From Candidatus Zhuqueibacterota bacterium (lineage in GTDB: Bacteria > Zhuqueibacterota > Zhuqueibacteria > Oceanimicrobiales > Oceanimicrobiaceae): DNA of 46,095 nucleotides. This document shows, one piece after another, positions 17,059 to 20,572 of this stretch; the first letter of the stretch is position 1, and each line of letters starts with the position of its first letter. The stretch lies in the NCBI GenBank assembly GCA_029262005.1, contig JAJDAG010000111.1, forward strand, positions 1-46,095, read 5' to 3'. Below the pieces are notes generated by a model that saw only the letters and a program-made list of their open reading frames with translations, searched no databases and was not told where the DNA came from. The position numbers and the translations under genes were made by a program.

Positions 17059-18585
17059 TTAAAACAATCTCTTTAAAACCATCAACAAGGTGTTTTGAAC
17101 AAACACTTTGCTCTGTCTGACAAAAAGGTTGACTTTCCTTCCTTGAAGCAGAGACATTAAGCCAACGTAAATAAAGCCAAATTGAAAAAGCACAAAAAAC
17201 GGGACTGAAGCATACACCCCCTTACTCAACAAGCTGAAAAAAGCAACTGTAAAATAGCAGCCTAGCGCGAGCTCAAGCAACGGCTGAAAATTAAATTCCA
17301 CACGATATTTCTTTTGATTCCAACTATCGGTCTTGTTTTCAATTCGATACTTGGGCGTGCGCTTAAACTCAGAGGACTTGTTAAACAAAGCCTCCAATAC
17401 GGCACGAGCGTTGTTGACCGACAACCCGATTCCCAAAGACATGAGCACCGGCAAGAATGGCACCTGATTCCGCCAATCGCGATTACCTTCTGTTTGCGAA
17501 ACCAAATAATATACTATCACTGACAACGAAGCAGAAAAGAACACAAACAAGTAAACGTAGACCATCCAGTCCCAGCCGCGCGCCATCTGAACATTCAGAA
17601 TAATAGGCATTAGCAACGATGGGATCGTCATAAACAAATAGGTGAAATTGCTGAATAAATGCGCGCTTGCCTCGCACTTAACAAACAGTGGAATATCACT
17701 GCGCCAGATAACCGGCAGCAGTTTCTTTGCAGTCTGAACAGAACCTTTGGCCCAACGATGCTGTTGCACTTTGTACGCATTCATTTCAACCGGCAATTCA
17801 GCCGGAGCCACGACATCGGGAACGTAGATAAACTGCCACCCGGCAAGTTGAGCCCGGTAACTTAAATCAAGATCCTCGGTAATGGTGTCGTGCTGCCAGC
17901 CGCCCGCATCGATTATGGCTTGTTTGCGCCAAATTCCAGCCGTTCCATTAAAATTAAAGAATCGGCCAGAGCGGTTTCGGGCGATGTGCTCAATGATGAA
18001 ATGTCCATCTAAAAACATAGATTGAATTCTTGTCAACAATGAATAGCCACGGTTGATGTGCCCCCAGCGCGTCTGCACCATGCCGACTTCCTTCTTTTGG
18101 AAGTAACCAACCGTTTTTCTCAGGAAGTCTGGTTCAGGCGCAAAGTCAGCGTCAAAAATCGCCAGCAAACCACCCCTGGCTTTTTCTAAACCAGCTTCCA
18201 GGGCCCCGGCCTTAAATCCCGTGCGGTCTGTTCTGTGAATGTAAGAAATATCAAAACCGCGACGCTTGTACTTCTCCACCAGACTTCTGGCAACATTGGT
18301 GGTCTCATCAGTAGAATCATCGAGCACCTGCACTTCGAGCAATTCTTTGGGATAGTCGATAGAACAAACAGATTCCAGTAAACGGCCAATGACATACTTT
18401 TCATTGAAAATTGGCAACTGAACGGTCACAACGGGAAGTTGCTCTGATTCGGCAGGCTCAAACAGCTTGTTGTTTTTATACTTCAGATAAAGATACAAAA
18501 GAAAATACTTGTGCAAACCAAAGACGACAAGCATGGTCAACACAAGCCCATAAAAAACAAGTAACCCCACTTCAAACTCACTCAT
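17059..18585 (-). CDS. GT2-family membrane glycosyltransferase (cellulose/mannan synthase-like)
   Basis: It has 508 residues. An N-terminal membrane helix (about 5-30) is followed by a GT-A domain with LPIFNEKYVIGRLLESV, LDDSTDETT (first Asp), FDADFAPEPDFL (DxD type), TEDLDLSYRAQLAGW (TED) and QQHRWAKGSVQT (QxxRW), the full set of processive beta-glycan synthases. Several C-terminal membrane helices follow (about 315-500). It resembles CSLA/CSLC-type hexose polymerases more than hyaluronan synthases. It is the last gene of a short run: Wza-like lipoprotein, BY-kinase-like protein, then this synthase, so it probably makes an exported polysaccharide of unknown sugar. Confidence 0.9.
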   Translation of the reverse strand: MSEFEVGLLVFYGLVLTMLVVFGLHKYFLLYLYLKYKNNKLFEPAESEQLPVVTVQLPIFNEKYVIGRLLESVCSIDYPKELLEVQVLDDSTDETTNVARSLVEKYKRRGFDISYIHRTDRTGFKAGALEAGLEKARGGLLAIFDADFAPEPDFLRKTVGYFQKKEVGMVQTRWGHINRGYSLLTRIQSMFLDGHFIIEHIARNRSGRFFNFNGTAGIWRKQAIIDAGGWQHDTITEDLDLSYRAQLAGWQFIYVPDVVAPAELPVEMNAYKVQQHRWAKGSVQTAKKLLPVIWRSDIPLFVKCEASAHLFSNFTYLFMTIPSLLMPIILNVQMARGWDWMVYVYLFVFFSASLSVIVYYLVSQTEGNRDWRNQVPFLPVLMSLGIGLSVNNARAVLEALFNKSSEFKRTPKYRIENKTDSWNQKKYRVEFNFQPLLELALGCYFTVAFFSLLSKGVYASVPFFVLFQFGFIYVGLMSLLQGRKVNLFVRQSKVFVQNTLLMVLKRLF

Positions 18586-18855
18586 AAAAAATGAAAAACT
18601 CCATATTTATATTTTTAGAGAAAATCCCCTAACCTCAGATTGGATAATAAACAATTGTATATTCTTGCTTATTCCACTAATTTCCATGTAACAAGACACG
18701 CTGAAGTCTGGTCAAAACAGGTTGAATATAGATATTCTGTCATATGGAGTCAAGCAATTTCAGGGAGGACATTGAGTGGGGGCACAATGTAAAACAAGGC
18801 GAGAAAACCCTCCTCGTTTCGTACTATTTTACAACAAAACAGAACATTCTCAGAG

Positions 18856-19491
18856 CTATGCCTGACTGACAACGTCCACAATATCGAGGTCCAGGACTTG
18901 TAACTCCGAAAGGGCACGTGACTTGGTTTCAATTCCCATTTCATTATCAGAAACGAGTACCAATGTTGCGGGTTGAAGAAATTTAGCCAGGGCGAAAGTA
19001 TCGATGTAGGCGTGATATGGGGGGGTGTTCAGCAAAACGAGATCATAGTGATTTGCGGCGGTGGCAATGAGTTGCGGCAACCTCAAGGAGGTTAACAAAG
19101 TCACTGGCTCAACAAAACATTCGCCAGAGCAAACCAGGTGCACGTTGGCCAGATTTGTCTTTTTTACAATTTCACGAACGGTATGCGTGCCTAAGAGGAA
19201 CTCAGCTAATCCGGCACCGCGCGACAACTTATAAGCCCTGCTGAGAATAGGTGTTCTGAGGTTGCAGTCAACAATAAGGACGCGTTGCAACCCTTTTTTG
19301 GAAATCTCCCAGGCCAGCTCCAATATTAACTCTGCACTGGCATTGAAGCTATCAGAAGAATTTACAAGAACCGGCTTACCAATCGGTTGTAACAATCTCT
19401 GATTCAGCTCTCCCAGAACTGAACTGCGGTTCCGTTGGCACAAAGTGACATTTACACTAGAACTCTGGTCACCTGCCGGTTGATTTACCAT
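18856..19491 (-). CDS. BY-kinase/CpsD-like ATPase homologue lacking Walker A
   Basis: It has 211 residues with the fold order of the cytoplasmic tyrosine-kinase half of Wzc/CpsD. The core shows KPVLVNSSDSFNASAEL (41-55) where a GxxxxGKS/T P-loop is expected, then the Walker A' element RVLIVDCNLRTPILSRAY (70-87), and a Walker B equivalent DLVLLNTPP (150-158) with Asn where kinases have Asp. The usual C-terminal Tyr cluster is missing; the protein ends VDVVSQA. ATP hydrolysis and kinase activity are therefore unlikely. It may act as a structural or regulatory partner of the Wza-like protein encoded 57 bases upstream and the GT2 synthase downstream. Confidence 0.75.
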   Translation of the reverse strand: MVNQPAGDQSSSVNVTLCQRNRSSVLGELNQRLLQPIGKPVLVNSSDSFNASAELILELAWEISKKGLQRVLIVDCNLRTPILSRAYKLSRGAGLAEFLLGTHTVREIVKKTNLANVHLVCSGECFVEPVTLLTSLRLPQLIATAANHYDLVLLNTPPYHAYIDTFALAKFLQPATLVLVSDNEMGIETKSRALSELQVLDLDIVDVVSQA

Positions 19492-19548: not shown

Positions 19549-20175
19549 TTATATTTCAACACCCGGGTCTCCCAAAGCAAGATCCGCCTTGACAACAAAG
19601 ACAACATCATCCGGCGCCAGTTTAAAATCTGTGATTAATCTGGCCGCACTGCCACCTTTACTCAGGTCAATCTTAAAGGTGCGGGCCCTGCCTTGCGGGC
19701 GTCCTCTGAACACCACTATCTTGAAGGTCAAAGGCGCACCCGTTAATCCGCCGGCAAGCAACAGCCCCTGGGCAATCGACATATTTTCCCTGAAGTGAAA
19801 AACACCGGGTGACTTGACTTCACCGCCAAAATAGACCGTTCGATTTTCCGGATTTTCAACCGTGATCTCAATTTCGGGAACGGCCAGCAATTTGCTGTAG
19901 CCATTCATCAGTTTACTCTTGAGCTGCTCCGCGGTCATTCCCGAAACATGAACATTGCCAAAATCTGAAAACGAAACATCGCCGCTTGCATCAACATTCA
20001 TGCAAGTGGTCAAATTCGGGTAGTGAATAAAACGAACATGCAGTGTATCGCCCGGCTTAATTTTGTAACCTGATTCTGCTTTTTGGACGCTGCGCAGGTG
20101 CAGCACCGGCAAACAACCAGGCAAGCCAATAGCTGAAACCGCTAAAAATAAGATGACTGATAGTTTTCCAAGCAT
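19549..20175 (-). CDS. Wza-like polysaccharide export lipoprotein
   Basis: From the ATG at 20175 the protein is 208 residues and begins with a lipoprotein signal (MLGKLSVILFLAVSAIGLPGC). The poly_export domain follows (YKIKPGDTLHVRFIHYPNL, then VDASGDVSFSDFGNVHVSGMTAEQL) and one SLBB-type domain (TVYFGGEVKSPGVFHFRENMSIAQGLLLAGG). The frame is open to 20274, but the upstream extension is Cys-rich and unlike the family. It is shorter than full Wza (about 380), with fewer SLBB repeats, as in many non-enterobacterial export proteins. It starts the run that leads to the BY-kinase-like protein and the GT2 synthase. Confidence 0.85.
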   Translation of the reverse strand: MLGKLSVILFLAVSAIGLPGCLPVLHLRSVQKAESGYKIKPGDTLHVRFIHYPNLTTCMNVDASGDVSFSDFGNVHVSGMTAEQLKSKLMNGYSKLLAVPEIEITVENPENRTVYFGGEVKSPGVFHFRENMSIAQGLLLAGGLTGAPLTFKIVVFRGRPQGRARTFKIDLSKGGSAARLITDFKLAPDDVVFVVKADLALGDPGVEI

Positions 20176-20572
20176 GAACAGCGCACCAAAACAGTGAAAT
20201 ACACACTCGTTTAAGCAACGCGCGTGCCAGCCGTAATTAGCGTGACATTTACACAGCAACTCCAATGTTAACAATTAATAACATCTATCAAATTCAGTTT
20301 GGCGATCTGTCTGAAGGCGTGGTGAAACGAGAATGTGTCTCAGTGTCAGGCAAAACAATGCTGTAGGATGTGGGAAACGTAACTACTTAGTGTTTGACTG
20401 AAAACTCAAATAGTTCTGTCATTCCGGCTTTATTTTATGAGGGTTGTAAATTCTGTATTCTCAATACTCTCCGTATGTCGCTGGCAAAATTCATGAACAA
20501 AGCAGGGTAGAAATTATATGAAAATTTAGAGAATCGTGTGCTTGTAAGAGACATTTACCAAAGCACTTCTAT
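20176..20572. other. Intergenic region with nothing recognised
   Basis: About 400 bases between the start of the Wza-like gene and the end of dinB. I see no open frame with a ribosome site, no tRNA and no clear stem-loop terminator. It must hold the promoter of the polysaccharide run, but no convincing -35/-10 pair was picked out. Confidence 0.5.

Follow-up and report, generated by a model that had tools for sequence, protein, structure and literature searches.

The window, a 46,095-nucleotide stretch of DNA comprising positions 1 to 46,095 of contig JAJDAG010000111.1 from a Candidatus Zhuqueibacterota bacterium, carries on its minus strand a short OPX lipoprotein gene followed by a gene for a stand-alone BY-kinase-like protein and, further on, by a GT2 glycosyltransferase gene. 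The features discussed below are as follows.

20336–20342, minus strand: TGAGACA, candidate activator site, 113 bases upstream of the sigma54-type site
20214–20229, minus strand: sigma54-type −24/−12 element TGGCACGCGCGTTGCT, ahead of the OPX–pseudokinase pair
19549–20175, minus strand: short OPX lipoprotein gene (Poly_export plus one SLBB; 208 aa from the ATG at 20175)
18856–19491, minus strand: BY pseudokinase gene (211 aa, stand-alone)
19327–19371, minus strand: degenerate Walker A VLVNSSDSFNASAEL, residues 41–55, with Ser52 at the Lys position and the loop length unchanged
19252–19281, minus strand: Walker A′ VLIVDCNLRT, residues 71–80
19015–19044, minus strand: degenerate Walker B DLVLLNTPPY, residues 150–159, with Asn155 for Asp
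18725–18753, minus strand: sigma70-type promoter TTGACT-N17-TATATT of the GT2 gene
18586–18855, no strand: intergenic stretch between the pseudokinase and GT2 genes (from ORF coordinates)
17059–18585, minus strand: processive-type GT2 glycosyltransferase gene (508 aa), a neighbour outside the unit

The family-library scans covered the pseudokinase, the OPX protein and the GT2 protein. An Rfam scan of the window returned four tRNAs only, whose genes lie in a row at 123–472 on the minus strand. The mechanically called OPX ORF extends to a TTG at 20274; because the sigma54-type site falls within this longer ORF, the ATG at 20175 is probably the start codon.

The 211-aa protein showed neither a signal nor, by hydropathy, a membrane segment. 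The NCBIfam BY-kinase model TIGR01007 matched residues 39–182 with 75.8 bits, below its cut-off of 108 bits, and the Pfam AAA_31 match was likewise under the cut-off. When an AlphaFold2 model made from a six-sequence alignment (pLDDT 79, pTM 0.80) was submitted to Foldseek, the Wzc kinase domain 3la6 ranked first (E 9.5e-14), and the best structural matches were the kinase domains of Wzc, Etk, CapB and VpsO. In VIA-align, Wzc and CapB scored a Z of about 24 (196 residues) and MinD one of 17.7. The protein is thereby predicted to have the BY-kinase fold. In a profile alignment with two solved kinases, Ser52 (VNSSDSFNA-S-AEL) aligned to the Walker A Lys without insertion or deletion, and Asn155 aligned to the Walker B Asp; the P-loop has retained its length and not its content, the Gly and Lys residues being gone. 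The Tyr tail is also missing: the C-terminal 35 residues of each of the six orthologues described below contain at most one Tyr. In active BY-kinases the consensus Walker A′ contains two Asp, and EX2RX2R serves as the oligomerisation motif. In the window protein the second of these Asp is Asn (LIVDCNLR), a position occupied by Asn in three orthologues and by Asp in the other three, and inspection of the six-sequence alignment by eye revealed no conserved counterpart of EX2RX2R. With GK[S/T], the Walker B Asp and the Tyr tail all wanting, the protein lies outside the active BY-kinases. It shows the sequence and fold features of a BY pseudokinase (the EcpK/HfsB subfamily of PCP-2 systems).

Intact orthologues of the pseudokinase were found in five of the seven other genomes of the family, each at the corresponding position after dinB and the OPX gene. 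The six copies, the window's included, belong to G000, G001, G002, G003, G005 and G007 and represent five genera. GK[S/T] occurs in none of them, the Lys position being Ser in G000, G003, G001 and G007, Cys in G005 and Ala in G002; Asn replaces the Walker B Asp in all six, and the invariant residues include D75 (the first Asp of Walker A′), N155, P158, Y159 and D164. A preliminary description of the locus had proposed a non-catalytic protein with a replaced Walker A, Asn for the Walker B Asp, no Tyr tail and the overall fold kept. The ORF, the profile alignment and the orthologues bear out the motif losses, the structural comparisons bear out the fold, and the degenerate state is conserved throughout the six copies; the same description held that Walker A′ is kept, which is correct for D75 and incorrect for the second Asp. 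It had also named homologues with an intact P-loop at the same locus as the finding that would mark the window copy as merely decaying, and none of the five homologues has one.

Across the phylum, matches of at least 275 bits were obtained in 6 of 82 genomes, all of one family; the next-best match scored 114.8 bits, and the six next matches listed all keep GK[S/T]. A related-loci search returned just two distant Poribacteria loci. Among 71 non-redundant BY-kinase-like frames, taken from the fetched loci as best or chosen matches and hence not a random sample, 59 have kept the P-loop (58 by script, L003 by eye). The 12 frames that have lost it are the six pseudokinases, four stand-alone proteins (L131, L132, L134 and L135) and two fused Poribacteria proteins (L036 and L037). 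Since the loss is common to all six orthologues while 59 of the 71 frames retain the motif, it appears to be more than chance. The remaining genome, G006, is uninformative about the pseudokinase, because it is 70% complete and its best dinB match is only 33% identical, with no orthologous dinB seen.

The four stand-alone proteins (L131:6111-7052, L132:4608-5444, L134:394-1227 and L135:7254-8057) are BY-kinase-like, have no Tyr tail and carry GEGSST, GEGSTT, GEGSTT and GAGATT, respectively, in which the Walker Lys is replaced. They come from other families of the same class; an OPX gene is present in their loci, where inspection by eye also suggested genes for PCPs and AAA-type ATPases. Possibly they form a second pseudokinase group of independent origin. 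The two Poribacteria proteins (L036:6342-8420 and L037:2891-4987) are long, co-polymerase/kinase-like, and retain the Walker B Asp and the first Asp of Walker A′ with the P-loop lost.

The OPX gene lies 2 to 57 bases upstream of the pseudokinase gene in all six genomes. Its product stops after the SLBB domain and has no outer-membrane helix domain; the OPX profile covered the front part only of Wza, as opposed to nearly all of 9n9a, the M. xanthus class-3 OPX WzaB, which it matched with 78.9 bits in the HMM comparison. The same structure ranked first in Foldseek with an OPX model that is itself weak (pTM 0.49), a match to NCBIfam EpsY fell under the cut-off, and Cys54, which follows a hydrophobic stretch, is invariant in six of six. 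The OPX protein resembles the M. xanthus D1D2-OPX proteins EpsY and WzaB (PMC9601211; 9n9a) in ending after a single Poly_export and a single SLBB domain. By its domain composition we would place it among the D1D2-OPX proteins. The same source characterises these as having no outer-membrane part, with a β-barrel protein and a PCP as proposed partners (PMC9601211).

On this conserved arrangement the predicted unit is one of two genes, OPX and pseudokinase. Genome G004 provides a case of its loss: the OPX gene is in fragments across three frames (L117:5600-6215) and the pseudokinase has left no trace at that locus, with dinB, GT2 and trx open and in the same order. Several frameshifts in one gene between sound neighbours look like a pseudogene, and an assembly fault may be the other explanation of the broken OPX gene.

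The G004 case could also be taken to mean that the pair is being lost and that the window copy is a remnant. In line with such decay, the pseudokinase evolves fast (22–42% identity in all pairs except G001–G007, at 59%), and the window copy is short by about 37 N-terminal residues, including an [LV]PSLHLF segment present in four of the six. In the comparison of G001 with G007 (Nei–Gojobori), the sole unsaturated pair, as the other pseudokinase pairs are near or past saturation, dN/dS was 0.29 for the pseudokinase, above the values of its neighbours (OPX 0.16, GT2 0.11, dinB 0.08 and trx 0.07). This value is nevertheless well below 1, the promoter element is retained, and six intact ORFs with common invariant residues persist in five genera. 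From the intact ORFs and the dN/dS of 0.29, the pseudokinase appears to be under purifying selection that is looser than on the neighbouring genes. The six intact orthologues and the dN/dS led us to reject decay, which we regard as very improbable.

A sigma54-type element precedes the OPX gene in all seven well-covered family genomes, G004 with its broken copy included. The strict form TGGCAYN5TTGCW is present in three of them and TGG[CT]A[CT]N5TTGC in the other four; TGAGACA occurs 113–124 bases upstream of the site in four of the seven. In 27 family loci (756,550 strand-bases), 17 loose sigma54 sites were found against 2.5 expected from mononucleotide shuffles: seven before the OPX gene, eight in PCP loci and two in G000:C113. 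Genome-wide, the strict motif occurred 31, 46 and 31 times in G000, G003 and G005, versus 6, 8 and 1 times for the reversed pattern. Eight groups of these 108 strict sites had first ORFs that resembled one another across the three genomes, one group lying inside a coding frame, and both the OPX–pseudokinase pair and the activator gene of a PCP locus (below) were among the eight. TGAGACA was near just two others of the 108 sites, at L226 of G003 (74 bases) and at L260 (reversed, 117 bases). By eye, the first genes common to the sites of the three genomes include a DnaJ-like gene and several that probably encode surface proteins or lipoproteins.

The preliminary description had grouped the GT2 gene with the export genes into one compact unit, possibly a synthase-dependent system. 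Neither proposal was upheld. The sigma70-type promoter of GT2 is present in all seven genomes, ending about 139 to 180 bases ahead of the start codon, also where the gene is relocated; TTGAC[TA]-N16-18-TATA[TA]T had 11 matches in 356,572 strand-bases, including the seven GT2 ones. GT2 lies on another contig in G001 and G007, where, by eye, the genes that follow it (trx, a reductase and a nucleotidyltransferase) are of the same kind as those downstream of it in G005 and G002, and in G004 it is open without the pair. Given its own promoter, GT2 is predicted to be a separate transcription unit, and a three-gene operon was ruled out by this promoter, the two relocations and the G004 case. GT2 and the export genes form no conserved unit, and inspection of the window ORFs by eye recognised no BcsB-, BcsC-, PgaA- or AlgK-like gene beside the pseudokinase.

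These data also bear on the idea that the pseudokinase attaches to GT2 on its cytosolic side and helps to assemble or place the synthase. The model for such a helper is BcsQ, a SIMIBI-type protein of a synthase system, cellulose secretion, according to parts of a report on it (PMC7439463), which the window protein resembles in combining a P-loop-type cytosolic fold with proximity to a GT2 synthase. GT2 adjoins the pseudokinase in four of the six pseudokinase-bearing genomes, and its divergence is compatible with a functional tie: between the linked genomes (G000, G002, G003 and G005) and the clade G001/G004/G007, dN was 0.31–0.37 for GT2 and 0.23–0.29 for dinB. Within the linked four the two genes were alike (GT2 0.23–0.27, dinB 0.21–0.31), and the excess of GT2 over dinB, seen between the two groups and within neither, concerns one branch only. 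Set against BcsQ as those parts of its report describe it (PMC7439463), however, the window protein is closer to BY-kinases (Z 24) than to MinD-type folds (Z 17.7), and its GT2 neighbour is genetically independent. This independence, with the promoter in seven of seven, the relocations and G004, together with the occurrence of GT2 in other families of the class without the pseudokinase, makes a BcsQ-like role unlikely.

That no co-polymerase is encoded locally had been described correctly, as far as the ORFs show: a PCP gene adjoins the pseudokinase in none of the six genomes. Kinase-less PCPs, in which only a tail follows the second membrane helix, are encoded elsewhere in all seven well-covered family genomes, and Wzz and GNVR domains were confirmed in the one from G001. 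In ten fetched loci of this kind, the pseudokinase profile matched none of 84 ORFs. A census based on PF02706, which is incomplete in that it missed a 523-aa PCP-like ORF of G000:C131 seen by eye, placed one kinase-less PCP type in all seven genomes, G004 included; the G000 copy meets the contig end after 275 residues, so that absence of a kinase is not visible there. A second type is complete in G000 (414 aa) and was not found in G005. Co-occurrence was tried as a guide to the partner and singled out none, and the cytoplasmic tail of the widespread PCP (about 45 residues) gives no partner signal, since G004 has this tail too.

Besides sigma54-type sites, the locus of the widespread PCP contains an activator gene of its own and encodes a Wzi-like protein and a long, multi-SLBB OPX. 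A site precedes the activator gene in six of seven genomes (none was seen in G001, whose contig starts shortly before the gene) and an Fn3 gene in six of seven (none in G002). In L142:9182-12484, L144:4702-7887, L195 and their equivalents, this Fn3 gene heads the OPX–PCP–Wzi row and adjoins an NtrC-type activator gene; an inverted repeat, AATTAC (or AAATAC)-N6-GTAAT, lies 102–103 bases upstream of the Fn3 sigma54 sites in the six genomes tested. The repeat was found before the OPX–pseudokinase pair in none of seven. A single regulon of the pair and the PCP locus is not supported, given these differing upstream activator words, and from their promoter regions the two appear to have only the sigma factor in common.

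The partners of the pseudokinase might instead be catalytically competent kinases, whose rings it would join as a regulatory subunit, damping or modulating them. Four other BY-kinase-like proteins with intact P-loops are indeed encoded in the same genome (C103, C113, C117 and C131). The best-scoring other protein of that genome is, however, just 27% identical to the pseudokinase, and inspection of the alignment by eye found no conserved motif of the EX2RX2R type. In the EcpK paper, moreover, such a mode is argued against for EcpK (PMC12004946). We consider a regulatory subunit improbable.

In our opinion, the BY pseudokinase is fairly likely to be a phosphorylation-independent scaffold for a kinase-less PCP encoded elsewhere in the genome, a reading that we infer from the fold, the lost motifs, the selection, the pairing and precedent. 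The pseudokinase would bind the cytoplasmic base of a PCP without its own kinase and would guide PCP assembly by binding, with neither ATP nor phosphorylation, and the OPX lipoprotein would supply the periplasmic section of the same export route. This would require an inner-membrane partner in trans, because the OPX protein is periplasmic and the pseudokinase, having no signal or membrane segment, is cytosolic. Such a scheme would correspond to the EcpK/EpsV/EpsY arrangement of Myxococcus xanthus. The pseudokinase, the D1D2-type OPX and the kinase-less PCPs elsewhere in the genomes are parts that fit it, and the joint loss of OPX (broken) and pseudokinase (absent) in G004 supports it. Several findings count against the scaffold: no PCP gene is adjacent in six genomes; G004 retains the most widespread kinase-less PCP locus without a pseudokinase; this same locus comes with a long OPX of its own and with an activator word that is absent before the pair; the PF02706 census is incomplete; and EX2RX2R has no conserved counterpart.

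According to the EcpK paper, this BY pseudokinase binds EpsV, a PCP-2 without a kinase, and its pathway employs a D1D2-type OPX (PMC12004946). The window protein shares with it the stand-alone BY-kinase fold, the absence of catalytic Walker motifs and of a Tyr tail, a gene apart from the PCP gene and a D1D2-type OPX. It differs in other respects from the account given there (PMC12004946): EcpK lacks all three Walker motifs, whereas here the first Walker A′ Asp is invariant; EcpK has a C-terminal basic helix, whereas the window protein model ends on the last strand; the EpsV partner of EcpK is demonstrated, whereas that of the window pseudokinase is putative; and the window gene, unlike ecpK, forms a pair with an OPX gene, the two preceded by a sigma54-type element. 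HfsB of Caulobacter crescentus, according to the same paper, is similarly a stand-alone BY pseudokinase without a Tyr tail, but works with the PCP HfsA in the holdfast pathway, whereas no PCP gene lies alongside the window pseudokinase (PMC12004946). Wzc and CapB are alike in fold, but their P-loop Lys, Walker B Asp and Tyr tail are absent from the window protein.

BY pseudokinases have thus already been described, as EcpK and HfsB; two experimentally studied ones are named in the EcpK paper (PMC12004946). New here are the pairing with an OPX gene in the absence of a PCP gene, the sigma54-type promoter, the retained first Asp of Walker A′ and the occurrence in 6 of 82 genomes of the phylum, all of one family. 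Literature searches restricted to open-access papers listed no report of an OPX–pseudokinase pair without a local PCP. As a more speculative extension, which we think rather unlikely, a short OPX and a BY pseudokinase under sigma54 could make up an inducible export module with no dedicated co-polymerase of its own, which would plug into a shared kinase-less co-polymerase and re-route its product via a second outer-membrane path.

BY pseudokinases have only recently entered the picture of polysaccharide export, and the family studied here contributes a further set. In this set five genera share a fixed dead state, the gene goes with an OPX gene rather than with a co-polymerase gene, and the type of promoter can be read; G004 adds one natural loss. 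The pair is small and clean, and offers a setting for asking if a BY-kinase fold is able to drive the assembly of a co-polymerase in an ATP-independent way.
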